Shown here one piece after another: positions 18,884-64,000 of a stretch of DNA of 64,000 bases. The notes beneath the pieces were generated by a model that made no database searches, had not been told where the DNA came from, and worked only from the letters and a program-made list of their open reading frames with translations. The position numbers and the translations under genes were made by a program. The stretch lies in contig BPKG01000005.1 of assembly GCA_026005015.1 (NCBI GenBank), positions 62,001 through 126,000 on the forward strand. The letters run 5' to 3'. Every line of letters starts with the position of its first letter. The stretch's first letter is position 1. This DNA is from Burkholderiales bacterium (GTDB lineage Bacteria > Pseudomonadota > Gammaproteobacteria > Burkholderiales > UBA6910).

Positions 18884-18887
18884 ACCT

Positions 18888-36695: not shown

Positions 36696-36713
36696 GTGGC
36701 ATGATAGTTGCTG
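36696..36713 (+). promoter_or_regulatory. Sigma-54 promoter candidate of the mptG-mtdB operon
   Basis: GTGGCATGATAGTTGCTG: TGGCAT and TTGCT with GG at 36698-36699, ten bases, GC at 36710-36711. Nearly identical in form to the promoter before the TonB receptor at 56999. Start near 36723. Confidence 0.75.
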
Positions 36714-36765
36714 AACCCTTTGTTCCGAACTCGAGGCACCCGCTGACTGCCCCTAGAATAAGAAA

Positions 36766-37782: not shown

Positions 37783-37808
37783 GCTAAGCGACAGGACCCT
37801 CGCGTTCC

Positions 37809-39828: not shown

Positions 39829-39865
39829 GGACAGATAAAACGCGACGCCCCTGCCACGGGGTTCA

Positions 39866-41783: not shown

Positions 41784-41785
41784 GC

Positions 41786-42718: not shown

Positions 42719-42740
42719 CCAACGACAAAAGGAGAAACCC

Positions 42741-43253
42741 ATGGCTAAGATCACCCGCACCCTGGTAGGCGAATCCTTGGTGGGCGACGGCAACGAGGTA
42801 GCCCACATCGACCTGATCATGGGTCCCCGCGGCAGTGCTGCCGAGTCGGCTTTTTGCCACACCTTGACCAATAACAAAGACGGTTTTACGGCGCTTCTGG
42901 CGGTGGTTGCGCCCAACCTGCCGGCGAAGCCCCACACCGTGATGTTCAATAAAGTCACTATCAAGAACGCCAAGCAGGCGACCCAGATGTTCGGGCCGGC
43001 CCAGCGGGGCGTGGCGATGGCGGTGACCGACTGCGTGGAGGACGGCACCATCCCGGCGAACGAGGCCGATGACGTCTTCATTTGCGTAGGGGTGTTCATC
43101 CACTGGGAGGCCGCCGACGACAACAAGATCCAGGACTTCAACTACCAGGCGACCAAGGAGGCGATCAAGCGGGCGGTGGCCGGCGAGCCCAAGGTGAGCG
43201 ACATCCTCGCCAAGCGGCGCAGCGTGATGCACCCCTTCGCCGCCCACGCCTGA
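42741..43253 (+). CDS. fae: Formaldehyde-activating enzyme
   Basis: Condenses formaldehyde with H4MPT to methylene-H4MPT, the entry into this pathway and usually one of the most abundant proteins of methylotrophs. 170 residues, full length. The catalytic His is in [51 protein letters not shown] and [20 protein letters not shown] are conserved. Strong ribosome-binding site AAGGAG. It converges with the HisA-like gene ten bases downstream. Confidence 0.97.
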
Positions 43254-43263
43254 GGGACGCGGC

Positions 43264-43953
43264 TCACAGGGTCTCGAGGTCTTCGCGGGTGAGGCTGCCG
43301 TCGTGTAGGGCGGAGGCGATGAGCGCCCCGAAGCCCCGGACGGTGAGCGCTTCCAGGTCCCGCTTGCCGCGTACGCCCCCGGCGCAGTAGATCCGCGCCC
43401 CGGGGGCGCGGGCGGCAAGCGCTCCCGCGAGGGCGAGATCCGGGCCTCGTCGGGCGCCTACCCGGTCCAGGTTCAGGGCGATCACCCGGGAGGGCCAGAG
43501 CTCCGGACGCTCGAGCAGCTCGGCCGGGCCCAGTAAGCGCTCCTGCCGGAAGTCGAGGGAGAGGACGAAGGCGTGGGCCTCGCCCGCGAGGGCTTCCAGC
43601 AGACGGAGGTCGGGGAGGGTTTCGCTGCCCACCACCGGGGTGAGCCCGCCGGCGGCCAGGCGGCGCCACCGGGCGAGGTCGCGAACGCCCGCGTCCACCC
43701 ACAGCTCCACCGGCGCGAGCTCCCGGCCCAGGGCCTCGAGCAAGGCCAGGTGGCTCCCCCGTTCCAGGATGGCGTCCAGGTCCGCGGCGTAAAGGGCGCG
43801 GAACGGGTGCAGGGCAGCCAACGCCCGGGCCACGTCCTGGGGGCGGCTTCCGGCGCATAGCCGGGAACGGAGCGGCGCGTAGCGCTCCCTCTGCCCGCGC
43901 CGGGCATGGACCACGAGGCCGTCCATGAGGTCGATGACCGGAACGATCTCCAC
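43264..43953 (-). CDS. HisA/HisF-related protein of the H4MPT gene set
   Basis: A 229-residue TIM-barrel protein of the HisA/HisF-related family found in methanogens and H4MPT methylotrophs. It begins VEIVPVIDLMDGLVVHARRG and has ALYAADLDAILERGSHLALL, VELWVDAGVRDLARW and ARIYCAGGVRGKRDLEALTV. True HisA is unlikely because no his genes are near. A role in cofactor synthesis is inferred from co-occurrence. Start is GTG 43953, only 12 bases from the GTG of the divergent ligase gene, so start assignment is tentative. Confidence 0.82.
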   Translation of the reverse strand: MEIVPVIDLMDGLVVHARRGQRERYAPLRSRLCAGSRPQDVARALAALHPFRALYAADLDAILERGSHLALLEALGRELAPVELWVDAGVRDLARWRRLAAGGLTPVVGSETLPDLRLLEALAGEAHAFVLSLDFRQERLLGPAELLERPELWPSRVIALNLDRVGARRGPDLALAGALAARAPGARIYCAGGVRGKRDLEALTVRGFGALIASALHDGSLTREDLETL

Positions 43954-43965
43954 CGGGGGATAGGG

Positions 43966-44976
43966 GTGCGAATCTTCCTGTACGAGCACGTGACGGGCGG
44001 CGGATTCATGGGGCAGCCGCTGCCTGCTTCCCTCGCGCGCGAAGGGGACAGGATGCTGCGCGCGGCGCTGGATGATCTCACGGAACTGCCGGGCGTGGAA
44101 ACGGTGGTGAGCCGGGATCCCCGGCTGCCCTTCCCGCCGGGCGCCGCGGCGGTGCTGGAGCCCGCGCCCGGCGAAAGCCCCCGTTCCCTTTACCGGCGCG
44201 GGCTCGCCCTGGCCGATCTCGCCTGGATCATCGCCCCCGAGACGGGGGGCGTGCTGGAAGCCCTCGCCCGGGAAGCGCTGGCGCGGGGGAAGGGACTCTT
44301 CGGGTGCGCCCCGGAGGCGGTGCGGGTGGCGGCGAGCAAACGGGCCACCGCCCGGGCCCTCGCCCGCGCCGGCCTTCCCGTCGTTCCCACCTTCGCCCCC
44401 GGGGAGCCCCTGCCGGCCCTTCCCGGTCCCTGGGTGGTCAAGCCCGACGACGGTGCCGGCTGCGAAGGCGCGCGCCGGGTGCCGGACGTGGACGCGGTCC
44501 GCGAGGCGCTCCTCGAGGCGGGGACGGGCCCGGTGGCGCAACCCTGGATCGAGGGCGAGGCCGCCAGCCTCTCCTTGCTGGTTTTCCCCGAGGGCCGAGT
44601 GCGGCTCCTTTCCTGCAACCGCCAGCACATCGCGGTGCGGGGCGAAGCTCTCGCCCTAACGGGGGTCACCGTGGGTGCCTGGGCGGACGCGGACGGCCGC
44701 TTGGCCGCCCTCGCCCAGGCGGCGGTGGCGGCGATCCCGGGACTGGCCGGTTTCGTGGGGATCGATTACGTCCAGACGTCCGCGGGACCGGTGGTCCTGG
44801 AGATCAATCCCCGGCTCACCACGTCCTATTGCGGCCTGCGCTCTGTGCTGGGGATGAACCCGGCGGCCCTGGCCCTGGGTCTTGTCTCCGAGGCCAGCGA
44901 AGAAAAGTCGGGCAGGATAGACCGACTAACGGGAAAGGGGCCGGTTCGCGTTTCCCTGGAGCCCGTCGATGCCTGA
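43966..44976 (+). CDS. mfnD: ATP-grasp ligase, MfnD-like (tyramine-glutamate ligase of methanofuran synthesis)
   Basis: A 336-residue ATP-grasp protein resembling archaeal MfnD, which joins glutamate to tyramine (Orf5 of methylotroph clusters). It starts MRIFLYEHVTGGGFMGQPLP (GTG start 43966, GGGGGA upstream). It has VASKRATARALARAGLPVVP, WVVKPDDGAGCEGARRV as the ATP loop and VVLEINPRLTTSYCGL with metal ligands. Followed by the MfnF-like gene with an eight-base overlap, which supports the methanofuran assignment. Confidence 0.85.
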   Translation: MRIFLYEHVTGGGFMGQPLPASLAREGDRMLRAALDDLTELPGVETVVSRDPRLPFPPGAAAVLEPAPGESPRSLYRRGLALADLAWIIAPETGGVLEALAREALARGKGLFGCAPEAVRVAASKRATARALARAGLPVVPTFAPGEPLPALPGPWVVKPDDGAGCEGARRVPDVDAVREALLEAGTGPVAQPWIEGEAASLSLLVFPEGRVRLLSCNRQHIAVRGEALALTGVTVGAWADADGRLAALAQAAVAAIPGLAGFVGIDYVQTSAGPVVLEINPRLTTSYCGLRSVLGMNPAALALGLVSEASEEKSGRIDRLTGKGPVRVSLEPVDA

Positions 44977-46039
44977 AGCGGCGGTCATCGGCTGGGACCT
45001 GGGCGGGGCCCACCTCAAGGCCGCCGCCGTCGCTCGGACCGCGGGCGAGCTGGCCGTGCTGGACGCGGTGCAACTGCCCTGCCCCCTGTGGCGGGGCCTG
45101 GATTACCTGGCGGCAGCGGTGGACCGGGCCCTCGAGCGTCTGGGCGCCGCCCCGTGCCATGCCCTCACCATGACCGGGGAGATGGCGGACCTGTTCCGGG
45201 ACCGGGCGGAGGGGGTGGCGCGGCTCGCGGACTTCATGGAGCGACGGCTGAGCGGACGGCGCACGCGCTACTTCGCCGGTGCCGGTTTCGTGGACGCCGC
45301 CCATGCCAAGGGCATGCCCCGGCGCGTCGCCTCCGCCAACTGGCTCGCCTCCGCCCGGTTCGTCGCGGGGCGGCTCGAGGCGGCGCTCTTCGTGGACGTG
45401 GGCAGCACCACCACCGACCTAGTGCCTGTGGCCGGGGGCGAGGTGCGTGCTACGGGCGAAGACGATTTCGAGCGCCTGGCTTCGGGCGAGCTCGTCTACA
45501 CGGGGGTGGCGCGCACGCCGGTAATGGCCCTCGGGAGGCGCGTGCCTTTCGAGGGACGCCGGGTGCCCCTCGTGGCGGAACACTTCGCCACCATGGCCGA
45601 CGTGCACCGGCTGGCGGGCGCGCTGCCCGAGCACGCGGACCAGTGGCCTGCGGCCGACGGGGGAGAGAAGACCGAGGAAGGCAGCGCCCGCCGGCTCGCC
45701 CGCATGATCGGGCGCGACGCCGCCTCGGCGGCGCCCGCCGCCTGGCGCCGGCTCGCCCGCCGGCTCGCGGGATACCAGCTGGCCCAGATTGAAGCTGCCG
45801 CCCGCCGGGTCCTGGCGGCAGCTGGCGTCGAGGCCACGGCCCCTGTGGTGGGCGCAGGGGTGGGCCGCTTCGTCGCGGCCCGGCTGGCGGCGCGGCTCGA
45901 GCGGCCTTACCGAGACTTCGCTGGCTTGTTCCATCGAATCCGCGCCGATCCGGAGTGGGTTGCCGGGTGTGCCCCGGCCGTGGCGGTGGCTTGCTTGGCG
46001 GCCGAAGAAGCAGAGGAAGCGATCCATGTGGGTAGTTAA
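44969..46039 (+). CDS. mfnF: Hydantoinase/oxoprolinase-like protein, MfnF type (methanofuran synthesis)
   Basis: A 356-residue ASKHA-fold protein, Orf7 of methylotroph clusters and homologous to archaeal MfnF, which couples the furan phosphate to glutamyl-tyramine. Nucleotide-binding segments are IGWDLGGAHLKAAAVAR at the start and ALFVDVGSTTTDLVPVAGGE near residue 135. ARPVMAL-type and GAGVGRFVAARLAARLERPY segments follow. Start overlaps the ligase stop, and its end overlaps the kinase gene by 14 bases. Confident family, inferred reaction. Confidence 0.87.
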   Translation: MPEAAVIGWDLGGAHLKAAAVARTAGELAVLDAVQLPCPLWRGLDYLAAAVDRALERLGAAPCHALTMTGEMADLFRDRAEGVARLADFMERRLSGRRTRYFAGAGFVDAAHAKGMPRRVASANWLASARFVAGRLEAALFVDVGSTTTDLVPVAGGEVRATGEDDFERLASGELVYTGVARTPVMALGRRVPFEGRRVPLVAEHFATMADVHRLAGALPEHADQWPAADGGEKTEEGSARRLARMIGRDAASAAPAAWRRLARRLAGYQLAQIEAAARRVLAAAGVEATAPVVGAGVGRFVAARLAARLERPYRDFAGLFHRIRADPEWVAGCAPAVAVACLAAEEAEEAIHVGS

Positions 46040-52358: not shown

Positions 52359-53687
52359 ATGAGCCTGAAGCTGCGCCTGAACCTGCTCCTGAGCGCCCTC
52401 CTGGGGGCGGTCCTCCTCGCCAGCGCCTTTTTCGCCATGCAACGGGCCCGGGAGGACGTGCGGGCGGAAATCCAGTCCACCATGGACCTTTCCCAGCACA
52501 TCCTGTGCGCCGGCGGGACTGGCGCCGGACCCGCCCTGGATCCGGAAGCTCTGGCGCGGGTGCGCCACTTTCGGATGGAACTCTACGACGCCGCCGGACG
52601 CCCAGTATACACGAGCCGGGACCGCCCGGACCCCGACCGGGGTGGAGCGCCTGAGTGGTTCGCCGCCGCCTTGACCCGCATGGCGCCCGCGTGGGAAGCG
52701 GTGCGCTGCCCCTGGCGGGCGGGCGGGCAGGCGATGGGCGAGCTGGTGATCCGCCCCGATCCGTCTTCCGAAATCCAGGAGGTATGGGAAGAAAGCGTGG
52801 GGCTCGCCCAGCTCGCGGCTCTCATCTTTCTGGGGGTGAACCTGGCCGTCTATGGCATCGTGGGGCGGGCCTTGCGCCCCGTGGACCGCATCCTGGAGGC
52901 GCTGACCGGGCTGGAGCAAGGTCGTCTCGAGACCCGGCTGCCCCAGTTCCCCCTGCCGGAGCTCGCCCGCATCGCCCGGGCTTTCAACCGCATGGCCGAG
53001 GCGCTGGAGCAGTCCATGACCCGCAATCGCCAGTTGAGCCGCCGGCTGCTGGAAGTGCAGGAGGACGAGCGCAAGCGCCTTGCCCGGGAACTGCACGACG
53101 AGCTGGGCCAGTACTTGAGCGCCATTCACGCCGAGGCGGCGGCGATCCTGAGCCAGGCGGAGCAGGTGCCGGCGTCCGCCCGGGCCAGCGCCCAGGCGAT
53201 CGTGGAGGCGTGCCGGGCCATGATGGGCATCGTGCGCGGCATGTTGGCCCGGCTGCGCCCGGGAGCCCTGGACGAGCTGGGGCTCGAAGAGGCGCTGCGG
53301 GAACTGGTGGCCGGCTGGCGCCGGCGCCATTCCACCGTCGCCTGCACCCTGGAGTTCTCGGGGGACGTGGAGGACTTGGACGAAGGGGCGAAGGTGTGCC
53401 TCTACCGCCTGGTGCAGGAGGGGCTGACCAACGTGGCGAAGCACGCGGACGCCCGCCGGGTGGAGGTGCGGCTCGCGCGGACCGGAGGCAGCGGGCCGGA
53501 GGATCGGGTGAGCGTGGAGGTGCAGGACGACGGCCGGGGCCTCGCCCCGGACGCCTTCCAAGCTGGCCACGGGCTCCTGGGCATGCGGGAGCGGGTCGAA
53601 TCCCTGGGAGGGCGGTTCACGGTGGAGAGCCTCCCGGAGGGAGGCGTGCGGGTGGCGGCGGAGCTGCCCGCGGGCGGGAGGGCTTGA
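52359..53687 (+). CDS. NarX/UhpB-type sensor histidine kinase
   Basis: A 442-residue membrane sensor kinase. It has a first membrane segment at about residues 9-27, a periplasmic domain of about 130 residues containing one Cys (HILCAGG), a second membrane segment near 150-175, then a HAMP region (RALRPVDRILEALTGLEQGR). The HisKA_3 phosphoacceptor is in DERKRLARELHDELGQYLSA. The ATPase has CLYRLVQEGLTNVAKHADAR, VQDDGRGL and GHGLLGMRERVESLGG. It is followed after one base by its response regulator. The signal is unknown; proximity to TonB receptors suggests a metal or methanol-related cue, which is inference. Confidence 0.92.
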   Translation: MSLKLRLNLLLSALLGAVLLASAFFAMQRAREDVRAEIQSTMDLSQHILCAGGTGAGPALDPEALARVRHFRMELYDAAGRPVYTSRDRPDPDRGGAPEWFAAALTRMAPAWEAVRCPWRAGGQAMGELVIRPDPSSEIQEVWEESVGLAQLAALIFLGVNLAVYGIVGRALRPVDRILEALTGLEQGRLETRLPQFPLPELARIARAFNRMAEALEQSMTRNRQLSRRLLEVQEDERKRLARELHDELGQYLSAIHAEAAAILSQAEQVPASARASAQAIVEACRAMMGIVRGMLARLRPGALDELGLEEALRELVAGWRRRHSTVACTLEFSGDVEDLDEGAKVCLYRLVQEGLTNVAKHADARRVEVRLARTGGSGPEDRVSVEVQDDGRGLAPDAFQAGHGLLGMRERVESLGGRFTVESLPEGGVRVAAELPAGGRA

Positions 53688-53688
53688 G

Positions 53689-54330
53689 ATGGACGCCGTG
53701 CCCGTGAGGGTGCTGCTGGCCGACGACCACGCGGTGGTCCGGGCCGGCTTCCGCCGGCTGCTGGAACAGCGACCGGAGATCCGGGTGCTGGCCGAGGCGG
53801 CAAGCGGCGAAGAGGCCTACCGGCTCTACGGGGAAATCCAGCCGGACGTGGTGGTGATGGATCTCTCCATGCCCGGCATGGGCGGTCTGGAGACGATCCG
53901 GCGCTTGATGGCCCGCTATGGCGCCCGGGTGCTGGTTTTCAGCATCCACGAGAGCGAAGCCTTCGCCCTGCAGGCGTTGAAAAGCGGCGCCTTGGGCTAC
54001 CTCACCAAGGCCTCGGCCCCCGAGGTGATCGTGAGCGCCGTGCACGCCGTGGCCCAGGGGCGCCGGTACCTCGGCCCCGACGTGGCCCAGCGGATCGCCT
54101 TGTACGCCGCGACGGGGGCGAACGACCCCCTGGCGTGCCTGAGCGCCCGGGAGTTCGAGATCTTCCAGCGGGTGGTGGAAGGGCATGGGCCCGAAGCCAT
54201 CGCCCGGGACCTGCACCTCTCCGCCAAAACCGTCGCCAACTACACCACCCAGATCAAGCAGAAGCTGGGGGTCACGAGCCCTGTGGAGCTGGTGCGGCTC
54301 GCCCTCAAGCATCACTTGATCTCCGGTTGA
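53689..54330 (+). CDS. NarL/FixJ-type response regulator
   Basis: A 213-residue regulator. The receiver domain has VLLADDHAVVRAGFRRLLEQ, phospho-Asp in VVVMDLSMPGMGG and Lys in GYLTKASAPEV. The LuxR-type DNA-binding domain is LSAREFEIFQRVVEGHGPEA, then IARDLHLSAKTVANYTTQIK. Partner of the kinase at 52359-53687. Clearly paralogous to the regulator at 59516-60160. Its own targets may include the TonB receptor 145 bases downstream. Confidence 0.94.
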   Translation: MDAVPVRVLLADDHAVVRAGFRRLLEQRPEIRVLAEAASGEEAYRLYGEIQPDVVVMDLSMPGMGGLETIRRLMARYGARVLVFSIHESEAFALQALKSGALGYLTKASAPEVIVSAVHAVAQGRRYLGPDVAQRIALYAATGANDPLACLSAREFEIFQRVVEGHGPEAIARDLHLSAKTVANYTTQIKQKLGVTSPVELVRLALKHHLISG

Positions 54331-54357
54331 GCCGCACCGGCGCTCCTCTGCCCACGT

Positions 54358-54372
54358 CGGGAAAATTTCCCG
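54358..54372. promoter_or_regulatory. 15-bp perfect palindrome upstream of the first TonB receptor
   Basis: CGGGAAA-A-TTTCCCG, 103 bp upstream of the receptor ATG at 54475 and 28 bp past the response-regulator stop. Probable operator; no other copy was noticed in the window. Confidence 0.5.
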
Positions 54373-54474
54373 GTGGGTTTTAAGCAATATCCGCACGCGT
54401 TCCGGCGTCCCGGGTTGCTAAGCTCCAGGCCGCAGGCTCGACGAAGCCGGCGATTTCGGTCACCAGGGGGGAGC

Positions 54475-56745
54475 ATGACAAAGAAGAACGCGCTCGCGGG
54501 CTGGCTCGCGGGCACGATCGGGGCGCTGGGGGCGGCGGGCGTCGTCCACGCCGAGGAGCGGGCGACCCGGCTGGAGGCGCCCACGGTGGAAGTGATCGGC
54601 ACCACGCCCTTGCCCGACCTGGGCGTGCCCCTGGAGCAGGTTCCCGCCAACGTCCAGGCGGCGACCGACCGGGAGATCCAGACCCAGAACCCCCTGGACC
54701 TTTCCGAGTTCATGGTGCGCAACTTGGGCAGCGTCCACGTCAACCAGGCCCAGAACAATCCCTTCCAGCCCGACGTGACCTACCGGGGCTTCACCGCCTC
54801 CCCCTTGCTCGGCAACCCCATCGGGCTTTCGGTGTTCGTGGACGGGGTGCGGGTGAACGAGGCCTTCGGCGACACGGTGAACTGGGACCTGATCCCCCTG
54901 TCGGCCATCTCCACCATCAACTTGATCCCGGGCTCCAACCCGGTGTTCGGCCTCAACACCCTGGGCGGGGCGCTCGCCATCCGCACCAAGTCGGGCTTCG
55001 ACTACCCGGGCACCACGGGCCAGGCCTACGCCGGCTCCTTCGGGCGCAAGGCCTTCGACGTCGCCCACGGGGGGCATCGGGACCGGGTGGACTGGTTCGT
55101 CACGGCCAACCTCTTCGAGGAGGATGGCTGGCGGGATTTCTCCCCTTCCGAGGTCAAACAGTTCTTCGCCAAAGCGGGCTGGGAGGACGCCACGAGCGAC
55201 CTGGATTTTTCCTACACCTTCGCGAAAAACGAGCTGGTGGGAAATGGCCTCGTCCCGGAAAGCTTCCTGGCCCAGCGCCGGGAGGCCATCTTCACCCATC
55301 CCGACGAGACCCGGCCGGAACTGCATTTTTTCAATCTCAAGGGCAGCCGCTGGTTCGGCGACAAGACGCTCCTCTCCGGCAACGCCTACTACCGCAAGCT
55401 GGACCTCGGCACGTTCAACGGAGACGCGGAATTCGACGACGGGGGCACTCCCTTGGACCCCACGGACGACGGTTATGAAGCGGAAAACCGCGCCACCCGC
55501 ACCGCGAGCCGCGTCCTGGGCGCCACGGTGCAGTTGAGCCTCCTGGGGGAGCTTGCCGGGCGTGCCAACCAGCTCACCCTGGGCGCCAGCGTGGACCGGG
55601 GCCGCACCCGCTTCCGCCAGCTCGAGCAGGAGGCGGACTTCACCCCGGACCGGGGCACCGCTGGCCACCGGCCCCTTCGAGCTGGATACCGCGGTCACCG
55701 GCCGCAACACCACCTACGGCCTCTACTTCACCGACACCTTGTCCCTCACCGAGCGGCTGGCCTTGACCCTTCTCGGGCCGCTACAACCGGGCAACAGTGC
55801 GGCTGCGGGACGACACGGGGCTCGCGCCGGAACTGGAAGGCCGCCACACGTTCAACCGCTTCAACCCGGCGCTGGGGCTCACCTTCAACCCTTCGGCAGG
55901 GGCTCACCCTGTACGGGAGCTACCACGAGGGCTTCCGGGTGCCCACGCCCGTGGAGCTCACCTGTGCCGACGAGAACGATCCCTGCGCCCTGCCGGTGGG
56001 CTTCGTCGCCGACCCGCCCCTGGAGCCGGTGGTGGCGAAGACCTGGGAGGTGGGGGCCCGGGGCCGCTTCGGGGGGAGCCTCAAGTGGAGCGCGACGGCC
56101 TACCGTACCGAGCTCAAGGACGACATCCTGTTCGTCTCCACCGGCGTGGGCCTGGGCTTCTTCACCAACGTGGACAAGACCCGCCGGCAGGGTATCGAGC
56201 TGGGGCTCGCCGGCCAGGCGGGACCCTTCGAGTGGTTCGCCAACTACGGCTTCGTGGACGCCACGTTCCGCTCTGCGGCCAGCCTGTTCAACCCGGTGGC
56301 CAATCCCCTGGACCCGGCCCAGCCGGCCACCATCGACGTGTCGGAAGGAAACCGGCTGCCCGGCATTCCCCGCCACACCCTGAAGCTGGGCGGCGTCTAC
56401 CGGGTAAGCGAGCGCTTCACCGTGGGCGCCCAGGTTCTCTACGCCTCCAGCCAGTTCCTGCGGGGGGACGAGAATAACCAGCGCGGCGAGCTTTCGGGCT
56501 ACACGGTGGTGAACCTGAACCTGGACTACCGCCTCTCCCGCCACTGGGTGTTCTTCGCCAAGGTGGACAACCTGTTCGACGCCCGTTACGAGACCTTGGG
56601 GGCGTTCAACCGCAACGCCTTCGACCCGGCCACCGGCCAGCCCCTGGATCAACTGGGGCCCGTGGAGCGCTTCGTCGCGCCGGGCGCCCCCCGGGCCGGC
56701 TGGGTCGGGGTGAAATACCAGTTCGGCGTTCCGCCCGGGCGCTAA
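54475..56745 (+). CDS. TonB-dependent receptor disrupted by three +1 shifts (candidate lanthanide or metallophore receptor)
   Basis: An outer-membrane receptor paralogous to the one at 56999-59275. Signal peptide MTKKNALAGWLAGTIGALGA and on to VVHA. The plug has VEVIGTTPLPDLGVPLEQVP, FMVRNLGSVHVNQAQNNPFQ and LGNPIGLSVFVDGVRVNEAF. The barrel end DNLFDARYETLGAFNRNAFD is in frame. Between about 55662 and 55900 the frame changes three times. Each change is one extra base relative to the paralogue (near 55662, 55770 and 55895), and together they restore the original frame. About 80 residues in the barrel are garbled if read straight. Sequencing errors in GC-rich DNA are likely, but a degenerating gene is possible. 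AGGGGGGAG precedes the ATG. The ligand is inferred from the neighbourhood only. Confidence 0.82.
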   Translation: MTKKNALAGWLAGTIGALGAAGVVHAEERATRLEAPTVEVIGTTPLPDLGVPLEQVPANVQAATDREIQTQNPLDLSEFMVRNLGSVHVNQAQNNPFQPDVTYRGFTASPLLGNPIGLSVFVDGVRVNEAFGDTVNWDLIPLSAISTINLIPGSNPVFGLNTLGGALAIRTKSGFDYPGTTGQAYAGSFGRKAFDVAHGGHRDRVDWFVTANLFEEDGWRDFSPSEVKQFFAKAGWEDATSDLDFSYTFAKNELVGNGLVPESFLAQRREAIFTHPDETRPELHFFNLKGSRWFGDKTLLSGNAYYRKLDLGTFNGDAEFDDGGTPLDPTDDGYEAENRATRTASRVLGATVQLSLLGELAGRANQLTLGASVDRGRTRFRQLEQEADFTPDRGTAGHRPLRAGYRGHRPQHHLRPLLHRHLVPHRAAGLDPSRAATTGQQCGCGTTRGSRRNWKAATRSTASTRRWGSPSTLRQGLTLYGSYHEGFRVPTPVELTCADENDPCALPVGFVADPPLEPVVAKTWEVGARGRFGGSLKWSATAYRTELKDDILFVSTGVGLGFFTNVDKTRRQGIELGLAGQAGPFEWFANYGFVDATFRSAASLFNPVANPLDPAQPATIDVSEGNRLPGIPRHTLKLGGVYRVSERFTVGAQVLYASSQFLRGDENNQRGELSGYTVVNLNLDYRLSRHWVFFAKVDNLFDARYETLGAFNRNAFDPATGQPLDQLGPVERFVAPGAPRAGWVGVKYQFGVPPGR

Positions 56746-56793
56746 GGACCCTAGGGCGCACTCACCGGTTTGTCGTAAGCCTATCCTCCCCTA

Positions 56794-56825
56794 GGGCGCT
56801 CCCTACCACGAGCGCCCGCTTTTTT
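56794..56825 (+). terminator. Rho-independent terminator after the first TonB receptor
   Basis: GGGCGCTC-CCTACCAC-GAGCGCCC followed by GCTTTTTT, 48 bases past the stop. It separates the two receptor genes into different transcripts. Confidence 0.85.
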
Positions 56826-56850
56826 GGGGGCTCCCGCTCCCGCTACACCC

Positions 56851-56868
56851 TGTTTCAGGATTGGGACA
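56851..56868. promoter_or_regulatory. Upstream activator palindrome of the second TonB receptor
   Basis: TGTTTCA-GGAT-TGGGACA, centred about 101 bp before the predicted sigma-54 start site. Same half-sites and even the same GGAT spacer as the element at 9487-9504. Confidence 0.65.
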
Positions 56869-56933
56869 CTGGATCGGTCCGGGGCAACCCCCGCCGGCAG
56901 GGCGGCTTCGGGTGAGCCCCGTGGGGAAGGGGC

Positions 56934-56951
56934 GTGGCATGATTCCTGCTT
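56934..56951 (+). promoter_or_regulatory. Sigma-54 promoter candidate of the second TonB receptor
   Basis: GTGGCATGATTCCTGCTT: GG at 56936-56937, ten bases, GC at 56948-56949. Predicted start near 56961. It overlaps an in-frame ATG at 56939, which therefore cannot be the translation start. Confidence 0.7.
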
Positions 56952-56998
56952 CCGGCGGGAAAAACGTTCCAAGAAATCCCTCGGGGAGGAGGAATCGG

Positions 56999-59275
56999 GT
57001 GCCCGCGTTCATCCCTGGTCCGCCGAAAGCCTGGCGGATCGCCGCCTTGCTGCCCTGGTTCGCCGCAGCCGCCTGGGCCGAGAATCCGGCTGCCACCCTG
57101 GAAGCGCCCACGGTGGAAGTGGTGGGTACGACACCCCTGCCCAGCGTGGGGGCTCCCCTGGAACAGGTGCCGGCGGCGGTCCAGGCCGCCACTGGGGAGC
57201 AAATCCGGCGGCGGCAGGCCCTGGACCTTTCCGAATTCATGGAGGGAAATCTGGCCGGCGTCACGGTGAACGCCGCCCAGGCGAACCCCTTCCAGCCGGA
57301 CTTGAGCTTCCGGGGCTTTTCCGCCTCGCCGCTCCTGGGCACGCCCCAGGGCCTTTCGGTGTTCGTGGACGGGGTGCGGGTGAACGAAGCCTTCGGCGAC
57401 ACGGTGAACTGGGATCTGATTCCCCGCTCGGCCATCTCCAGCATCAACCTGATTCCCGGCTCCAACCCCCTGTTCGGCCTGAACACCCTGGGTGGCGCCC
57501 TGGCGGTGCACACCAAGTCCGGCTTCCAGTACCCGGGCTTCGCCGCCCAGGCCCTGGCGGGCTCCTGGGACCGGCGAGCAGTGGAGTTCGAATACGGAGG
57601 CTTCCGGGACCGGGTGGATTGGTTCGTCACCGGCAATCTCTTCGATGAGGACGGCTGGCGGGAGCACTCCCCCTCGAAGGTGCGGCAGCTCTTCGGCAAG
57701 CTCGGCTTCGAGGACGACGTCATGGACCTGGACGCGAGCTTCACCCACGCCGACAACACCCTGGAGGGGGTTCAGGCGCTGCCCTTGTCGATGCTGGGCC
57801 GGCCGGAGCAGGCCTACACCTGGCCCGACCGCACCCGCAACCGGCTCAATTTTTTTAGTCTCAAGGGCAGCCGGGTGTTCGGCGAAGACAAGATCCTCGC
57901 CGCCAACGTCTATTACCGCAGGCTCTACAGCGACAACTTCAGCAGCAACGTCAACGATGAGTTCGACCCCGTGACCAGCCCCAACCCGGCGTTCAACGAC
58001 CTGAGCGTCACCGATCAACGGGGCTATGGCGGCTCGGTGCAGTGGACCCTGCTCGGCCGTCTCCTCGAGCGGGCGAACCAGTTCACCCTCGGCGCGAGCC
58101 TGGACCGGGGGGAGACCGACTTCAGCCAGTTCGAGCAGGAGGCGGCGTTCACCCCCGACCGGGGCACGGTGGCCACCGGGGATTTCGAGCTGGAAACCGA
58201 CGTGAACGCGGTGAACCGCTACGCGGGGCTCTACTTCACCGATACCTTGTCCCTGACCGAACGCCTGCACCTCACCGTCTCGGGGCGCTACAACCGGGCC
58301 CGGCTCAGGATCCGGGACAAGACGGGACTGGAGCCCGCCTTGAACGGGGACCACACCTTTTCCCGCTTCAATCCGGCGGCGGGGGTGGCCTACAACCCGG
58401 TCCCGAGCCACACCCTGTTCCTCGCCTACAACGAAGGCATGCGGGCTCCCACCCCGGTGGAGCTCACCTGCGCCGACCCTCTGGCCCCGTGCCGGCTGCC
58501 CAACGCTTTCCTGGCCGATCCGCCCTTGAAGGAGGTGGTTTCCCGGACCTGGGAGACAGGCCTGCGGGGCCGCGTCGCCGGCCGCCTGGGCTACAGCTTG
58601 AGCCTCTACCGGACCCACCTCCAGGACGACATCCAGTTCGTGAGCAGCGGCGGGGCCATCAACGCCGGGTTCTTCCAGAACGTGGGGACCACCCGCCGCC
58701 AGGGGCTGGAGCTTACCCTGCAGGCGGATTGGGGCCGGTTGCGGCTTCTGGGGAGCTACAGCTTCATCGACGCCACTTTCCGCACCCCCTTCCTGCTGAA
58801 CAGCCCCAACAATTCCTCGGCCCAGCCCATCCAGGGGCCGAACGACATCCAGGTGCGGCCCGGCGACCGCATCCCGGGCATTCCCCGCCACGTCCTCAAG
58901 CTGCGGGCCGAGTATTCGGTGAGCGAAGCGTTGTCCCTGGGCGCGAGCCTCCAGGCGGCGAGCAGCCAGTTCGCCCGGGGGGACGAGAACAACCAGGACG
59001 TCCACGGTCCGGTGCCGGGCTACGCGGTCCTCAACCTGGACGCCCGCTACCTCCTCTCCCGCCGTTGGGAGCTCTTTTTCAAGTTGAACAATCTGCTGAA
59101 CGAGCGCTACGAGAACTTCGGCGTGCTGGGGGAGAACTTTTTCCGCGGCCCCGGCAACACCTTCGATCCGGGGAGCGCCGCCCCCGAGCAGTTCCGCTCC
59201 CCCGGCGCCCCCCGGGCGGCCTGGGTCGGGCTGCGTTACGCCCTGGGAGGCGGGGCGGGGGGAGGGGACGACTGA
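56999..59275 (+). CDS. TonB-dependent receptor (candidate lanthanide or metallophore receptor)
   Basis: A 758-residue intact outer-membrane receptor. GTG 56999 with GGAGGAGG upstream is the start; it gives the signal peptide MPAFIPGPPKAWRIAALLPW to AAAWA. The plug begins LEAPTVEVVGTTPLPSVGAP and includes FMEGNLAGVTVNAAQANPFQ, LGTPQGLSVFVDGVRVNEAF and SNPLFGLNTLGGALAVHTKS. The barrel ends in WVGLRYALGGGAGGGDD with an unusual Gly-rich tail instead of a terminal aromatic. Receptors of this sequence type occur in many methylotrophs, and lanthanide receptors (LutH/LanA) belong to the same broad superfamily; I cannot prove this one is an orthologue. The sigma-54 promoter and activator site suggest induction together with methanol metabolism. 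Confidence 0.88.
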   Translation: MPAFIPGPPKAWRIAALLPWFAAAAWAENPAATLEAPTVEVVGTTPLPSVGAPLEQVPAAVQAATGEQIRRRQALDLSEFMEGNLAGVTVNAAQANPFQPDLSFRGFSASPLLGTPQGLSVFVDGVRVNEAFGDTVNWDLIPRSAISSINLIPGSNPLFGLNTLGGALAVHTKSGFQYPGFAAQALAGSWDRRAVEFEYGGFRDRVDWFVTGNLFDEDGWREHSPSKVRQLFGKLGFEDDVMDLDASFTHADNTLEGVQALPLSMLGRPEQAYTWPDRTRNRLNFFSLKGSRVFGEDKILAANVYYRRLYSDNFSSNVNDEFDPVTSPNPAFNDLSVTDQRGYGGSVQWTLLGRLLERANQFTLGASLDRGETDFSQFEQEAAFTPDRGTVATGDFELETDVNAVNRYAGLYFTDTLSLTERLHLTVSGRYNRARLRIRDKTGLEPALNGDHTFSRFNPAAGVAYNPVPSHTLFLAYNEGMRAPTPVELTCADPLAPCRLPNAFLADPPLKEVVSRTWETGLRGRVAGRLGYSLSLYRTHLQDDIQFVSSGGAINAGFFQNVGTTRRQGLELTLQADWGRLRLLGSYSFIDATFRTPFLLNSPNNSSAQPIQGPNDIQVRPGDRIPGIPRHVLKLRAEYSVSEALSLGASLQAASSQFARGDENNQDVHGPVPGYAVLNLDARYLLSRRWELFFKLNNLLNERYENFGVLGENFFRGPGNTFDPGSAAPEQFRSPGAPRAAWVGLRYALGGGAGGGDD

Positions 59276-59335: not shown

Positions 59336-59407
59336 TCAGCGGTTGGCGATGTACAGGGTGACTTCGAAGCCGAACCGCATTTCGGTGAATTGGGGCTTGG
59401 TCCACAT
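59336..59407 (-). CDS. pqqA: PqqA, peptide precursor of PQQ
   Basis: A 23-residue peptide beginning [12 protein letters not shown] and ending [10 protein letters not shown]. It contains the Glu-x-x-x-Tyr pair (E15 and Y19) that PqqE cross-links to form PQQ, and the YIANR tail common in PqqA. A strong ribosome-binding site (AGGAGAAGGAG) lies upstream of the ATG and a terminator just after the stop. Normally pqqA sits directly before pqqB; here it is about 40 kb away, behind a two-component system. An inverted repeat (59446-59480) and a copy of the shared 15-bp motif with two mismatches (59500-59514) lie upstream. Too short to be found by usual length cut-offs. Confidence 0.95.
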
Positions 59408-59445
59408 GGCGAATGCTCCTTCTCCTGAGCCAGGAATTTCAGCTT

Positions 59446-59480
59446 CCAATATAAGATCGAGACTCCAGATCTTGTATTGG
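59446..59480. promoter_or_regulatory. Inverted repeat upstream of pqqA
   Basis: CCAATATAAGATC and GATCTTGTATTGG, 13-bp arms with one mismatch and a nine-base spacer, 39-73 bp upstream of the pqqA ATG. On the minus strand it includes TTATATT, a possible -10 element, so it could be an operator overlapping the promoter. It could also end transcription from the regulator gene, but no U-tract is present. Confidence 0.55.
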
Positions 59481-59499
59481 GAAAAGCCTGGATCGGGCC

Positions 59500-59514
59500 T
59501 AAGGATTTTCATGA
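59500..59514. promoter_or_regulatory. Near copy of the shared 15-bp motif upstream of pqqA
   Basis: TAAGGATTTTCATGA, 13 of 15 positions identical to the motif at 11783, 18869 and 63857. It lies 93 bp upstream of pqqA and immediately after the stop of the response regulator gene. Confidence 0.5.
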
Positions 59515-59515
59515 G

Positions 59516-60160
59516 CTAAGGCTCCAGCAACCCCGCCCGCAGGGCGATCAGGGTGAGTTCCGCGGCGTTGGAGGCGTTCAGCTTCTGCTTGATGTTGTAC
59601 AGGTGGGTGCCCACCGTGCGGGGGCTCAGGTACAGCATTTCGGCGATCTCGGCCACGGTCTTGCCCTGGGCGAGGAGCAGGAACAGCTCGAATTCCCGCG
59701 GGCTCAAGACTTCCACCGGGTTGCGGGTTCCGGTCACCTGCTGGATCGCCAGTTGCTGGGCCAGGGCCGGCTCCAGATAGACCTTGCCGGCGGCCACCTG
59801 CCGCACCGCCTGGATCAGCTCCTCGGGCGCGCTGCGCTTGGAGAGATAGCCCAGGGCCCCCGCTTCCAGGACCCGCTTCGGGTGCAGGGTGTCGTCGTGG
59901 GCCGAGAGCACCAGGATGCGGGCGTCCTTGTCCTTGGCGAGCAGGCGCCTCACCGCCTCCATCCCCCCCATGCCCGGCATGGAAAGGTCCATCACCACCA
60001 CGTCCGGCCGGGCCTCCGGATAGCGCTTGAGCGCCTGCTCGCCGGTGTCGGCTTCCGCCACCACCCGGATGTCGGGCGTGCTCTCCAGCAGCAGGCGGAA
60101 ACCCATGCGGACCACCGCGTGGTCGTCCACCAGCATGACCTTGAGCGGGGAAGCGATCAT
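59516..60160 (-). CDS. NarL/FixJ-type response regulator in the tonB-pqqA gene run
   Basis: A 214-residue regulator: VMLVDDHAVVRMGFRLLLES, phospho-Asp in VVVMDLSMPGMGGMEA, Lys in GYLSKRSAPEEL. DNA-binding domain is VLSPREFELFLLLAQGKTVA, then EIAEMLYLSPRTVGTHLYNI. It follows its kinase by ten bases. Position directly before pqqA, in a run that begins with tonB, makes it the best candidate for reading the shared 15-bp motif, but this is inference. Confidence 0.94.
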   Translation of the reverse strand: MIASPLKVMLVDDHAVVRMGFRLLLESTPDIRVVAEADTGEQALKRYPEARPDVVVMDLSMPGMGGMEAVRRLLAKDKDARILVLSAHDDTLHPKRVLEAGALGYLSKRSAPEELIQAVRQVAAGKVYLEPALAQQLAIQQVTGTRNPVEVLSPREFELFLLLAQGKTVAEIAEMLYLSPRTVGTHLYNIKQKLNASNAAELTLIALRAGLLEP

Positions 60161-60170
60161 AAAAAACAGT

Positions 60171-61913
60171 TTAACCCGCCGCCACCGCCGCCTGGACGGG
60201 CAGTGGGATCACCGCCCGCACCCGCACGCCTGCGCCGGGATGGCCCTCCACCGAGAAGCGGCCTTTGAGGGCCTGCACCCGCTCCCGCATGCCCAGGAGC
60301 CCGTAGCCGACCCGGACGGAGGCGCCGCCATTGCCCATGCCCCGGCCGTCGTCCTGGACCGTGACCTGCACCGCTTCCTCCCCGCTTTCCGGGTCGATCC
60401 CGCGCACCACCTGCACCTCGGCGCGGGAAGCGCCCGCGTGCTTGACCACGTTGGTCAGGCACTCCTGGACGATGCGGTAGACCGTGATGTTGACCTCCTC
60501 CCCCAGGTCCTCCAGCTTGCCTTCGAGCTTGAGGGAGAAATTCACCTCGGGGTGGGCGGCTCGCCAGGTCTCCATCGAATCCTGGAGCGCCTCGGGCAGC
60601 CCCAGGTGGTCCAGAGCCGAAGGCCTGAGGTTGCGGATCATGCGATGCACCAGGTCGTAGAGGTGCCCGGCGATGGAGACGATGGTCTTCGCCTGCTCGT
60701 GGGCCTGGAGGTCGCTCTGGGCGGTGCGCTGGGCGATGGTCATGCCGATGGTCTTGATCGCGGTGGCGCACTGGCCCAGCTCGTCGTGCAATTCCCGGGC
60801 GAGGCTGCGGCGCTCCTCTTCCACGTGGCGCTGGATGAGCTGGGTGAGCCGGCGATTCTGTTCCAGCTCCCGGGCGATCGCCTCGGCCCGCTTTTTCTCG
60901 GTGATGTCCCGCAGGCTCACGATCTCGCCGAGCACCTGGCCGTTAGCGGGGTCCGTGAGGGGCGCGGCGGAGAGGGTCAAATCCAGCACCCGAGCGTCCC
61001 GGGTGAGCCACCGGGTCTCCGCGTTGTCGATGCGCCCGCCCCGCAGCAGCGCGGCCAGCGCCTCGGCTGCCTCGCCCTCGCCGGGCATGAGGACGCGGGC
61101 GGGCCGCCCCAGGATCTCCCCGGCGGCGTAGCCGAAGAGCCGCTCGGCGGCGGGATTCCAGAAGGTGATCTTTCCCTGGGGGTCCAGGATCATGGTGGCG
61201 TCCCCTGACTGCTGCACGGCAAGCGCCAGGCGCTGGTTCTCCGCCATGCTGCTCTCCAGAGCCTGGGCCATGCGGTTGAAGGTGTGGCTGATGGCGGACA
61301 TCTCGGGCAGGGCGAAATCGGGGAGCCGCGCGTCCAGACGGCCCTGTTCCATCCGCGAAAGGCCCTCCAGGATGGTCTTCACGGGCTTCAACGCCCGCTC
61401 CACCAGCCAGAACACCAGCACGTTCACCAGCACGAAGAAGGCGGCGGCGATCCAGGCCAGGCTTTTCAGGTCATCCCAGGCGTCCAGGGTGGCGCGGGAA
61501 GGATCCGGGATCACCTCCAGGAAGCCCCCCTGGAAACGCAGAAAAACCAGGGACTCCTTCGGGCTCACCAGGCGGCTGAACCACTGGGGCGCGTAGCGTC
61601 CCGCCTTGTAGGTGGAAGGAGGCGAGACATAGACCAGGTCGCCCAGGCTGTTGTAGCAGCGGATCTCGTTGGAACGCACCCGGCCCAGGGAGTTGAGGAA
61701 GTTGAGCATCACCTGGAGCTGGGACTCGGAGTGGGGCACGAACCGGCTGGTGTAGATGACGGTGGTGAGCAGCTGCACGGTGACCCGGGTGGCGGCCCGA
61801 ACCTCCTCGCCGATGGACTTGCGCATGTTGTCCAGCATCATGGCGCCGCTCGCCACCAGGAACAGCACCATGAGGGTCGTGCACAGCAGGTTGATGCGGG
61901 TTCTCAAGCGCAT
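60171..61913 (-). CDS. NarX-type sensor histidine kinase with PAS domain
   Basis: A 580-residue membrane kinase. Membrane segments are near residues 8-28 and 155-178, enclosing a periplasmic domain of about 125 residues. A HAMP region (RALKPVKTILEGLSRMEQGR) is followed by a PAS domain (DATMILDPQGKITFWNPAAE, then RLFGYAAGEILGRPARVLMP). The phosphoacceptor is in EEERRSLARELHDELGQCAT. The ATPase has TVYRIVQECLTNVVKHAGAS and VTVQDDGRGMGNGG. The signal is unknown. Its start overlaps the iminopeptidase stop by ten bases, so the kinase belongs to the tonB-pip operon. Confidence 0.93.
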   Translation of the reverse strand: MRLRTRINLLCTTLMVLFLVASGAMMLDNMRKSIGEEVRAATRVTVQLLTTVIYTSRFVPHSESQLQVMLNFLNSLGRVRSNEIRCYNSLGDLVYVSPPSTYKAGRYAPQWFSRLVSPKESLVFLRFQGGFLEVIPDPSRATLDAWDDLKSLAWIAAAFFVLVNVLVFWLVERALKPVKTILEGLSRMEQGRLDARLPDFALPEMSAISHTFNRMAQALESSMAENQRLALAVQQSGDATMILDPQGKITFWNPAAERLFGYAAGEILGRPARVLMPGEGEAAEALAALLRGGRIDNAETRWLTRDARVLDLTLSAAPLTDPANGQVLGEIVSLRDITEKKRAEAIARELEQNRRLTQLIQRHVEEERRSLARELHDELGQCATAIKTIGMTIAQRTAQSDLQAHEQAKTIVSIAGHLYDLVHRMIRNLRPSALDHLGLPEALQDSMETWRAAHPEVNFSLKLEGKLEDLGEEVNITVYRIVQECLTNVVKHAGASRAEVQVVRGIDPESGEEAVQVTVQDDGRGMGNGGASVRVGYGLLGMRERVQALKGRFSVEGHPGAGVRVRAVIPLPVQAAVAAG

Positions 61914-62851
61914 GAGGGAGACTCAAGCCGCGCCTTGAACGCTTCCCCTGCCGCGAGCATGGCCTGGCCTATGGCGGGAGAGCCGGCGGAGTGCCCTCCG
62001 CCTTCCACCAGGATGAGCCGGGCCTCGGGCCACGCTGCCTTGAGCCGGAAGGCCGCGACGGGCGGACAGATCAGGTCCAGCCGGCCCTGCACCAGGGTGC
62101 AGGGGATGTGACGGATGTTCGGGACCCCGCGGAGCAGCCCGCCCGGGTCCAGAAAACAACCATGGACCAGGTAGTGGGTCTGGATCCTGGCCTTGGCGAG
62201 GAGTTTCTCAGGAGGAGGGGGCTCGCTGGAGACCGGGTCCACGAGGCCCATGGCTCGCCGCTCGTAAGCCTCCCAAGCCCGCGCTGCCGCGAGGGCCAGG
62301 TTCCGGTTCGTTCCGTGCAGGGCCCGATGGTAGCGCTCCAGGAGGCTTTCTTCCCCGGGCACGGCGCGGGAGAAGGCCTCCCATGCGTCGGGCAGGAAAC
62401 GGGCGAGCCCCTGGAGGTACCAGTGGACTTCTTCTTCGGTGCCCAGGAAGACGCCCCGCAGCAAGAGCCCCGCGCAGGCGGAAGGATGAGCCCGGGCATA
62501 GGCTAGGGCGAGGGTCGCCCCCCAGGAGCCGCCGCACACCAGCCAGCGTTCCACGCCCAGGTGGGCCCGCAACGCTTCCATGTCCTCCAGGAGAAAAGGG
62601 AGCGAGTTCTCCTGGACAGCGCCAAGAGGGGTGCTCTGGCCGCAGCCCCGCTGGTCGAAGAGCACCACCCGGTAGAAGGCGGGATCGAAGAAGCCCCGGC
62701 TCGTGGGGTTCGAGCCGCTTCCCGGGCCGCCGTGCAGCACGATGACCGGGCGGCCCCTGGGGTTGCCGCTTTCCTCGTAATAGAGGCGATGGAGGCCCCG
62801 GGGGAGCCAGCCTCGGGCGTGGGGTTCGGCATAGGGGTAAAGCCCCGTCAT
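61904..62851 (-). CDS. pip: Proline iminopeptidase-like alpha/beta hydrolase
   Basis: Releases N-terminal proline from peptides. 315 residues with family marks: VIVLHGGPGSGSNPTSRGFF, FDQRGCGQSTPLGAVQENSL, catalytic Ser in VCGGSWGATLALAYA, late Asp in QGRLDLICPPVAAF and His in VEGGGHSAGSPAIG. No signal peptide, so cytoplasmic. ATG 62851 overlaps the tonB stop (ATGA). In this run it is next to regulators and pqqA; no other candidate PqqA-processing peptidase (PqqF/PqqG type) is in the window, so a role in PQQ maturation is conceivable but unproven. Confidence 0.9.
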   Translation of the reverse strand: MTGLYPYAEPHARGWLPRGLHRLYYEESGNPRGRPVIVLHGGPGSGSNPTSRGFFDPAFYRVVLFDQRGCGQSTPLGAVQENSLPFLLEDMEALRAHLGVERWLVCGGSWGATLALAYARAHPSACAGLLLRGVFLGTEEEVHWYLQGLARFLPDAWEAFSRAVPGEESLLERYHRALHGTNRNLALAAARAWEAYERRAMGLVDPVSSEPPPPEKLLAKARIQTHYLVHGCFLDPGGLLRGVPNIRHIPCTLVQGRLDLICPPVAAFRLKAAWPEARLILVEGGGHSAGSPAIGQAMLAAGEAFKARLESPSCA

Positions 62852-63759
62852 CCCCGTTCCTCCAGGCGGAAGTGGATGGGGACGGTGACCTCGTACCACC
62901 CACGCAGGCTCGAAGGCGGGGGCTGGCGGGAGAGGGCCTTGCGCACCATGTCCAGGGCCTGGCGGTCCAGCACCTCGTGGCCGCTGGATTCCGCCACCTT
63001 CACTTCCTGGACTTGGCCGTTGGGGCCGATGCGCACCAGGATCTGGGCGGTTCCCTGCCAGCCCCGGACCCGGGCGATGCGCGGGTACTGCCTGTGCTCC
63101 GCCGCCGCGGCGCTCAGGCTGCGCTCGTACCCCTGAAGGGTTTCCCTGTCCCGCAGCAAGGCGGCCTGGGATTCCGCCGGCGGCAGGGGAGCGGGGCTCA
63201 AGACCGGTGCCGGGGCCGCTGGCTCGGCCGCGGGGGGCAGGGCCGCCACGGGACCCGGCGACTCGGCCGGCGGGGCGGGGGGTTCCACGGGAGAGGCCTG
63301 CACGGGTTCTTCCGCCAGCGGGCTCGCAGGCTTGGCCTGGGCGACGGGCTTCTGCGGCGTGGGCTTCCTCCGCTCCACCGGCCGGGCCTGAGGAACGGAG
63401 TCCGGTTTGGGTTTCTCGGCCGCCAGCGGTCGGGGCGGCGGGGGCGACGCCTCCTCGATCTGCACCGGCGCGACGGAGACCAGTTGAACTTCCAGCACCT
63501 CCACCGGCTTGGGCGGGGTCGGGGAGGGGGCGGGCACCAGGTAAACGGTCAGGCCATGGGCCGCCAGCGACAGCATCAGCGCCAAGAGGAGTCGCCGGTT
63601 CGAGTTCGAATCGGACGGACCGGAGAGATCCTCGGGCAGCAAGACGTCCTCGGGGCGTTGTTCGGCTGCGTCTCGCCCGGCCATTTCACGAAGTCGCCCC
63701 TGGAACGAGGCCACGCTGTGCAGTGTCATCGGGTTGGGGGTCAGCCCGGCCAGTCTCAC
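62848..63759 (-). CDS. tonB: TonB energy-transducing protein
   Basis: Couples inner-membrane proton motive force to outer-membrane receptors. About 303 residues. It has a cytoplasmic N-terminus of about 50 residues, one membrane anchor (RRLLLALMLSLAAHGLTVYL), a long Pro/Ala/Glu-rich spacer (PPPPRPLAAEKPKPDS and following) and a C-terminal TonB domain: YPRIARVRGWQGTAQILVRI, then VAESSGHEVLDRQALDMVRK. GTG 63759 is chosen because GGAGG lies eight bases upstream; ATG 63729 and TTG 63774 are alternatives. No exbB or exbD is adjacent. A perfect 15-bp shared motif lies 98 bp upstream. First gene of the run tonB-pip-kinase-regulator. Confidence 0.9.
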   Translation of the reverse strand: MRLAGLTPNPMTLHSVASFQGRLREMAGRDAAEQRPEDVLLPEDLSGPSDSNSNRRLLLALMLSLAAHGLTVYLVPAPSPTPPKPVEVLEVQLVSVAPVQIEEASPPPPRPLAAEKPKPDSVPQARPVERRKPTPQKPVAQAKPASPLAEEPVQASPVEPPAPPAESPGPVAALPPAAEPAAPAPVLSPAPLPPAESQAALLRDRETLQGYERSLSAAAAEHRQYPRIARVRGWQGTAQILVRIGPNGQVQEVKVAESSGHEVLDRQALDMVRKALSRQPPPSSLRGWYEVTVPIHFRLEERG

Positions 63760-64000
63760 GAAGGCGTCCTCCAAAAGAGGCCGCCCTGGGCAATCGTGAA
63801 ATAATCCAAGCTAGCCTAGTGCAACGCCTGACCCCGGTAAATAAAGCGGTGAAAGATCATGAAAATCATGAGCCCCGGGTCACGATTTCCCGACTGCCGC
63901 GGGCCCGAGGCTGCGCCGAAGATTAAGTCCGGGAAGCCTTGGGGGCAAGTCCCGGGGCGTTCCTCCCGGACGCCGTCCGGGTTGTTTCCATTCCAACATT
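63760..64000. other. Region upstream of tonB at the window end
   Basis: 241 bp with no recognisable gene. It contains the shared motif (63857-63871) and a GC-rich dyad around 63950-63982 (CCCGGGGC, CCGGACGCCGTCCGG). A 39-codon minus-strand frame from 63999 has no ribosome-binding site in view and no family resemblance. Confidence 0.5.
63857..63871. promoter_or_regulatory. Shared 15-bp motif upstream of tonB
   Basis: Plus strand TCATGAAAATCATGA, the reverse complement of the copies at 11783 and 18869, 98 bp upstream of the proposed tonB start. Confidence 0.65.

Follow-up and report, generated by a model that had tools for sequence, protein, structure and literature searches.

How the synthesis of the cofactor pyrroloquinoline quinone (PQQ) is regulated has been described as unclear, even for Gram-negative model species (PMC9851590; this and the other papers cited are represented here by their available excerpts). 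As described in these excerpts, AgmR/PedR1/ErbR of Pseudomonas, which is found in the ped cluster, activates the pqq operon and PQQ alcohol dehydrogenase genes and possibly has its activity set by PP_2683 and YiaY (PMC12997753), and the reported targets of MxaY/MxaB and MxaYX of methylotrophs are mxaF, xoxF and mxaB (PMC5018670). PqqU (YncD) is a high-affinity TonB-dependent PQQ importer whose gene and the pqq operon are mostly non-syntenic, which has been taken to suggest independent regulation, with four syntenic genomes from Burkholderiales (PMC12124388). The gene for the precursor peptide, pqqA, is present in 3 to 12 copies in Methylophilaceae, in which the other pqq genes are usually single (PMC4109929), and a PQQ producer with five pqqA copies expresses them unequally (PMC9851590). 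Here we describe a histidine kinase and a response regulator, HK1 and RR1, that are encoded next to a pqqA gene in a window of 64,000 nucleotides from a Burkholderiales bacterium (positions 62001-126000 of contig BPKG01000005.1 in the 3.38-Mb genome GCA_026005015.1; coordinates below count from the first letter of this window), together with a palindromic, operator-like site that recurs at genes of PQQ synthesis and import. We propose, with a probability of roughly three in four, that HK1-RR1 is a two-component system dedicated to PQQ, in which RR1 would activate a regulon for the synthesis and import of the cofactor.

The predicted activation of pqq genes by a regulator recalls AgmR/PedR1/ErbR in its described role (PMC12997753), for which the excerpts give no operator; unlike that protein, RR1 has its own adjacent kinase, a predicted regulon of PQQ synthesis and import, and no site at the dehydrogenase gene of the window. 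MxaY/MxaB and MxaYX likewise represent kinase-regulator control, in their case of PQQ-dependent methanol oxidation (PMC5018670), and HK1 has a predicted LapD-like sensor fold, but the methanol dehydrogenase gene of the window is devoid of the site. A PqqU-like receptor gene has the same palindrome upstream, and this shared site suggests joint control of the PqqU-like and pqq genes even where they lie apart, unlike the view expressed in the excerpts of PMC12124388. The excerpts on multiple pqqA genes (PMC4109929, PMC9851590) do not describe a common operator of the kind found here. Within the available text of the open-licence PMC papers searched, neither the operator nor a pqq-linked block of tonB, peptidase, kinase and regulator genes is described, and the control circuit for this cofactor is apparently so far undescribed in that literature; three 14-letter motif strings used as queries returned a single paper, on Schistosoma.

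The run on the minus strand comprises tonB (62848-63774; PF03544 and TIGR01352, TonB_C 5.1e-19; start codon uncertain), an S33 family prolyl aminopeptidase (61904-62851; TIGR01249 at 297.9 bits against a cut-off of 259.75; PDB 1qtr at 1.2e-78), HK1 (60171-61913; HAMP, PAS, HisKA_3 and HATPase_c domains), RR1 (59516-60160) and pqqA1, which encodes a PQQ precursor peptide of 23 residues (59336-59407; PF08042 and TIGR02107, 47 bits against a cut-off of 20). RR1 is a NarL/UhpA/GacA-type response regulator, in which the receiver (Response_reg, PF00072, 103.1 bits) and the LuxR-type DNA-binding domain (GerE, PF00196, 60.8 bits) both score over their cut-offs. These profile searches confirm the families of all five genes that an earlier note on this DNA had read as a run of tonB, iminopeptidase, kinase, regulator and pqqA. 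As read from the sequence, tonB and the peptidase gene overlap by 4 bp (ATGA) and the peptidase and HK1 genes by 10 bp, and gaps of 10 bp and 108 bp separate HK1 from RR1 and RR1 from pqqA1. The first four genes are closely packed in one block, and from the overlaps tonB and the peptidase gene are probably co-transcribed with HK1 and RR1. pqqA1 does not simply form the end of this operon, as a palindrome and a promoter-like stretch start right after the stop codon of RR1. A second copy, pqqA2 (TIGR02107 and PF08042 over cut-off, 45.1 bits), starts 17 bp past the end of the window and is divergent from tonB; next come genes for a beta-propeller protein of the YVTN type and for a cytochrome b561 (126325-127275 of the contig), and similar genes are observed near HK1 in several other genomes.

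The earlier note knew this gene order from no other organism; comparison of neighborhoods, which it had itself recommended, revealed that many other genomes of Burkholderiales share it. Among 399 genomes from this order, 53 contain a relative of HK1 (E <= 1e-75), and the surroundings were fetched for 49 of the 52 genomes other than that of the window, several contigs ending early. RR1 lies directly 3' of HK1 in all 49 of these loci and the peptidase gene immediately before HK1 in 38; pqqB is found divergently within 7 kb in 31, a recognisable TonB within 3 kb upstream in 24, and PqqU within 4 kb after in 17. With the window included, the 50 loci contain 32 divergent pqqA copies (in 32 loci) and 39 copies behind RR1 (in 33 loci). 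As RR1 follows HK1 in every fetched locus and pqqA is present in 64 of the 66 genomes with RR1, the arrangement exceeds chance. In the genus of the window, represented by two genomes, pqqB and pqqE lie away from HK1, and pqqA2 is left opposite tonB. In ten loci of one family, which appears to be Methylophilaceae-like, the kinase-regulator pair stands alone among the genes sought, bar a weak dehydrogenase match in one of them (L073); pqqA, pqqB and pqqE are all absent from the surrounding 9 kb or so. Further, HK1 was not found at the threshold used in 13 genomes with RR1, and in some loci a shorter kinase adjoins RR1, indicating stronger conservation of the regulator than of the sensor.

A search for inverted repeats upstream of the pqqA genes in the fetched loci yielded a sole recurrent sequence, the 17-bp palindrome CTCATGA-AAA-TCATGAG. 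Its 15-bp core (TCATGAWWWTCATGA) is matched in full at just three places in the whole genome, one before pqqB of the pqqBCDE operon, one before the pqqU-like gene and one between tonB and pqqA2, against an expectation of 0.0016 per strand from the dinucleotides of the window. A scan of the window with up to three mismatches returned six matches on the two strands at four places, where 0.10 were expected and none of 100 shuffles had as many. The palindrome of pqqA1 (CTCATGAAAATCCTTAG, two mismatches; 59499-59515, minus strand) abuts the stop codon of RR1 and is followed by a -10-like box, TATATT (59448-59453, minus strand), at an offset of +46 to +51. That of pqqA2 (ATCATGAAAATCATGAG) is at 63856-63872 (plus strand), that of the pqqBCDE operon (TTCATGAAAATCATGAG) at 18868-18884 (minus strand), with a -10-like CAAAAT at 18817-18822, and that of the pqqU-like gene (TTCATGAAAATCATGAC) at 11782-11798 (minus strand). 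Another inverted repeat, CCAATACAAGATC-N9-GATCTTATATTGG (59446-59480, minus strand), was considered as the operator of pqqA1 and dropped, for it covers the -10 region and a different repeat recurs in the other genomes.

Among pqqA copies from loci fetched through HK1, and hence not chosen by the motif, the site is present with at most two mismatches within 320 bp upstream in 69 of 71 cases, and within 700 bp in 70 of 71. A pooled set, which includes loci selected by the motif, comprises 117 distinct pqqA copies (121 minus four duplicates); of these 115 have the site, compared to 5 of 116 in the downstream control and none of 585 dinucleotide shuffles. The center of the site in this set lies 89-252 bp ahead of the start codon of pqqA, with a median of 130. 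As controls we take these shuffles, the downstream comparison and the genomes that have pqqA but lack RR1; a reversed pattern searched in the genomes is a weak control here, since GC-rich DNA contains its letters less often (an expectation of 0.00004 versus 0.0016 per strand). The arrangement around the palindrome was examined in 99 sites, a set that omits those with pqqA on both sides or on neither. On the side of pqqA a second conserved element spans +6 to +17 from the palindrome, and for 79 of the 99 the best match to a -10-like box begins at +45 or +46. On the side facing away from pqqA neither the second element nor the -10 box is seen, just a weak bias at three bases adjacent to the palindrome. 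This one-sidedness, which serves as an internal control, indicates that the palindrome sits where activators bind. It also gives no support to the palindrome driving tonB.

The same layout bears on the possibility that the site is the operator of a repressor, with RR1 shutting off the PQQ genes when PQQ or a metal is plentiful. The -10-like box begins about 54 bp downstream of the center of the palindrome, the two do not overlap, and no strong -35 consensus is seen; these features suit an activator-dependent promoter, and we regard repression as quite improbable.

The connection between the site and RR1 emerges from the distribution of the two across the 399 genomes, where relatives of RR1 (E <= 1e-70) occur in 66, pqqA in 79 and both in 64. 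The exact pattern TMATGAWWWTCATKA is found in 57 of the 64 genomes with both genes, in 2 of the 15 with pqqA only and in 65 of the 318 with neither; it is found twice or more in 44, none and 6 of them, respectively. When pqqA-bearing genomes are collapsed by genus, with genera having some RR1-positive members counted as positive, the site is present in 23 of 25 genera with RR1 and in none of the 11 without. Both pqqA-only genomes with the site belong to one genus (g76), two further members of which carry RR1, with identities of 55 and 59%. It is conceivable that the regulon is real and its binder a different regulator that co-occurs with RR1, leaving HK1-RR1 to answer another input at other targets. 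The location of HK1-RR1 away from pqq genes in the ten Methylophilaceae-like loci would accord with this, as would the many regulator-like candidates that each genome holds in first-look counts. However, the recognition helix of RR1, LSPxT[VI]GTHLYNIKQKL, scarcely varies where the site is present (73 aligned sequences, at least one of them a duplicate) and differs in RR2, the paralogue of RR1 in the window; moreover, relatives of RR1 adjoin the site in records titled Gammaproteobacteria and Panacagrimonas too. With RR1 as the only regulator compared with the distribution of the site, we consider a different binder unlikely.

The earlier note had suggested that the sensor may monitor PQQ or a metal and that the pair controls pqqA and receptors. 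Control of pqqA is favored by the shared palindrome and by the co-occurrence of RR1 and the site across genera. Control of receptors would apply to the PqqU-like receptor (9526-11730) and does not extend to the two receptors adjoining the run (54373-56745 and 56861-59275), at which the window scan found no palindrome with up to three mismatches. In that scan the methanol/ethanol-type PQQ dehydrogenase gene (26546-28372) also lacked a site.

The genomes with scattered pqqA genes allow the reach of the site to be followed beyond the block. In eight Methylophilaceae-like genomes with many such genes the exact site lies within 320 bp of 19 of the 39 pqqA copies listed. Of the 20 remaining copies 18 were fetched, and they show the site with at most three mismatches in 15, with four in two and with six in one; all these best matches fall 90-155 bp upstream, and three mismatches or fewer were reached by 3 of 585 shuffles. 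As HK1-RR1 is placed away from pqq genes in this family, and the dispersed copies nevertheless carry the site, the regulator would appear to act in trans. Graded operator strengths could in turn explain why pqqA copies are expressed unequally, as the excerpts of PMC9851590 report. A different situation is seen in a genome from the family of the window (G003), which combines RR1, a kinase and TonB with a PqqU-like gene that carries a perfect site, and which gave no match to pqqA; at a completeness of 85% it is only suggestive of an import-only user of PQQ.

A scan for CTCATGAWAATCATGAG in one genome per species from 84,980 species gave at least 120 stretches, of which 80 are listed. Among those listed, 49 are linked to PQQ genes (34 before pqqA, 12 before pqqU and 3 before pqqB), 3 are near a response regulator or histidine kinase gene and 28 are near none of these; 22 of these 28 come from outside Betaproteobacteria by title, mostly from other phyla, as chance predicts. 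The PQQ-linked sites among the listed matches include records of Thauera, Azoarcus, Azonexus, Dechloromonas and Derxia, and also of Methylovorus, Methylobacillus, Methylophilus, Methylotenera, Steroidobacter and Panacagrimonas. The scan is not independent of the 399 genomes, at least 4 of the 80 stretches (L136, L156, L160 and L172) being from genomes already used. Thirteen pqqU-linked sites in named loci are similar to each other by eye. In four records from Methylophilaceae or other Betaproteobacteria (L142, L176, L191 and L193) the palindrome precedes a small protein, glycine-rich by eye, that is a possible further target.

Several observations weigh against a PQQ-dedicated system as proposed here. 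The exact site was not found in seven genomes with both pqqA and RR1. Six of them, all but G053, were searched again with one mismatch: four (G060, G245, G303 and G173) then showed a site close to a pqqA or pqqU-like gene, one (G097) a site with no PQQ gene nearby, and one (G263) none. The exact pattern is also present in the 65 genomes, mentioned above, that have neither pqqA nor RR1, and 5 of the 24 exact sites in the eight Methylophilaceae-like genomes lie more than 320 bp from any of the pqqA copies listed. The genomes are related, and the counts hence overstate their independence, kinship being handled by the collapse to genera only. Of the 28 unplaced sites among the listed matches of the named scan, six are betaproteobacterial, four of these before an unrelated small protein. 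In the window, tonB has no mirrored promoter, and the site of the pqqU-like gene is too near the annotated start for the usual layout. Lastly, the core ATGAWAATCAT resembles the consensus of Fur, from which the site at 63856 differs at 4 of 19 positions.

This resemblance raises the alternative that the palindrome is a Fur-type iron box, the PQQ genes part of an iron regulon and RR1 a mere neighbor. Genes for TonB and receptors are classic targets of Fur, and Fur is usually described as near universal. Against a 19-mer consensus of the type GATAATGATAATCATTATC, three PQQ sites have 4 to 6 mismatches in 19. However, positions 1, 3, 15 and 17 of the palindrome are C, C, G and G in 77-90% of the 115 sites, whereas the Fur consensus carries A or T at these positions, and the exact site is absent from all 11 pqqA genera without RR1 despite the near ubiquity of Fur. 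The three perfect cores of the genome are all at PQQ genes; 16 further sites with two mismatches are not, and 10 of the 12 of these that were inspected fall inside predicted coding frames. The upstream position of the site, too, fits an activator. A Fur box is hence highly unlikely in our estimate.

Under the reading that we prefer, of HK1-RR1 as a PQQ system, phosphorylated RR1 would bind CTCATGA-AAA-TCATGAG about 67 bp upstream of the transcription start predicted from the offset of the -10 box, and as the putative activator it would turn on the pqqA copies together with pqqBCDE and the PqqU-like importer gene. Precursor peptide, synthesis and re-uptake would then rise together, and HK1 may respond to the demand for PQQ or to an alcohol substrate. 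In the N-terminal part of HK1 two long helices, probably transmembrane, flank a periplasmic domain, which gives a sub-threshold match to LapD_MoxY_N (PF16448; 15.2 bits against a cut-off of 25, E 0.02); MoxYX is another name for MxaYX. A model of the sensor domain built from three sequences (mean pLDDT 84.8, pTM 0.58) matches the periplasmic output domain of LapD (4u64; Z 9.5, rmsd 4.2 over 125 residues), which points to no ligand; the top matches to the whole model are modelled helical receptors, a common arrangement. Trimming of PqqA by the peptidase of the block is conceivable, but elsewhere the genome encodes a pair of M16 peptidases, the type of enzyme that PqqF represents.

The remaining PQQ genes of the window lie 43 kb from HK1 on the minus strand as pqqB (17766-18671; TIGR02108, 426 bits), pqqC (17044-17757; TIGR02111, 364 bits), pqqD (16623-16907; NF002535 and TIGR03859 over cut-off) and pqqE (15515-16657; TIGR02109, 535 bits). 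The receptor at 9526-11730 (minus strand) has NF041535 as its best family, and with 615 bits against an equivalog cut-off of 1200 it is named PqqU-like only; the earlier note linked neither its gene nor pqqBCDE to the run. The receptors at 54373-56745 and 56861-59275 were rejected as PqqU, as each scores 113.7 bits with NF041535 and higher with TonB-siderophor, and the receptor at 9526-11730 fits far better. A frame of 640 residues (11813-13735, plus strand), which is divergent from the pqqU-like gene and separated from it by the palindrome, matches no family of NCBIfam or Pfam at the thresholds applied. On the plus strand, at 52359-59275, HK2 and RR2 form a second kinase-regulator pair ahead of these two receptors, which are TonB-dependent and resemble each other; HK2, RR2 and one receptor are also present in the sister genome (G002), and RR2 is 50% identical to RR1. 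The gene content, including C1-transfer genes named by eye at about 31743-46000, suggests a methylotrophy island.

Taken across Beta- and Gammaproteobacteria, these observations may describe a PQQ regulon with one regulator, interchangeable sensor kinases and one operator-promoter module for the pqqA copies, synthesis and re-import. Scattered pqqA genes would then provide an extra supply of precursor under graded operators, and import-only genomes may keep the regulator for the importer alone; towards this broader scheme we incline only slightly. Synthesis and import have so far been taken as mostly independently regulated, according to the excerpts of PMC12124388, and the shared operator bears on this view. 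A defined operator, a promoter layout and a candidate regulator make the regulation of PQQ directly testable. They could also explain the many free-standing pqqA genes of methylotrophs and may offer a handle for the production of PQQ.

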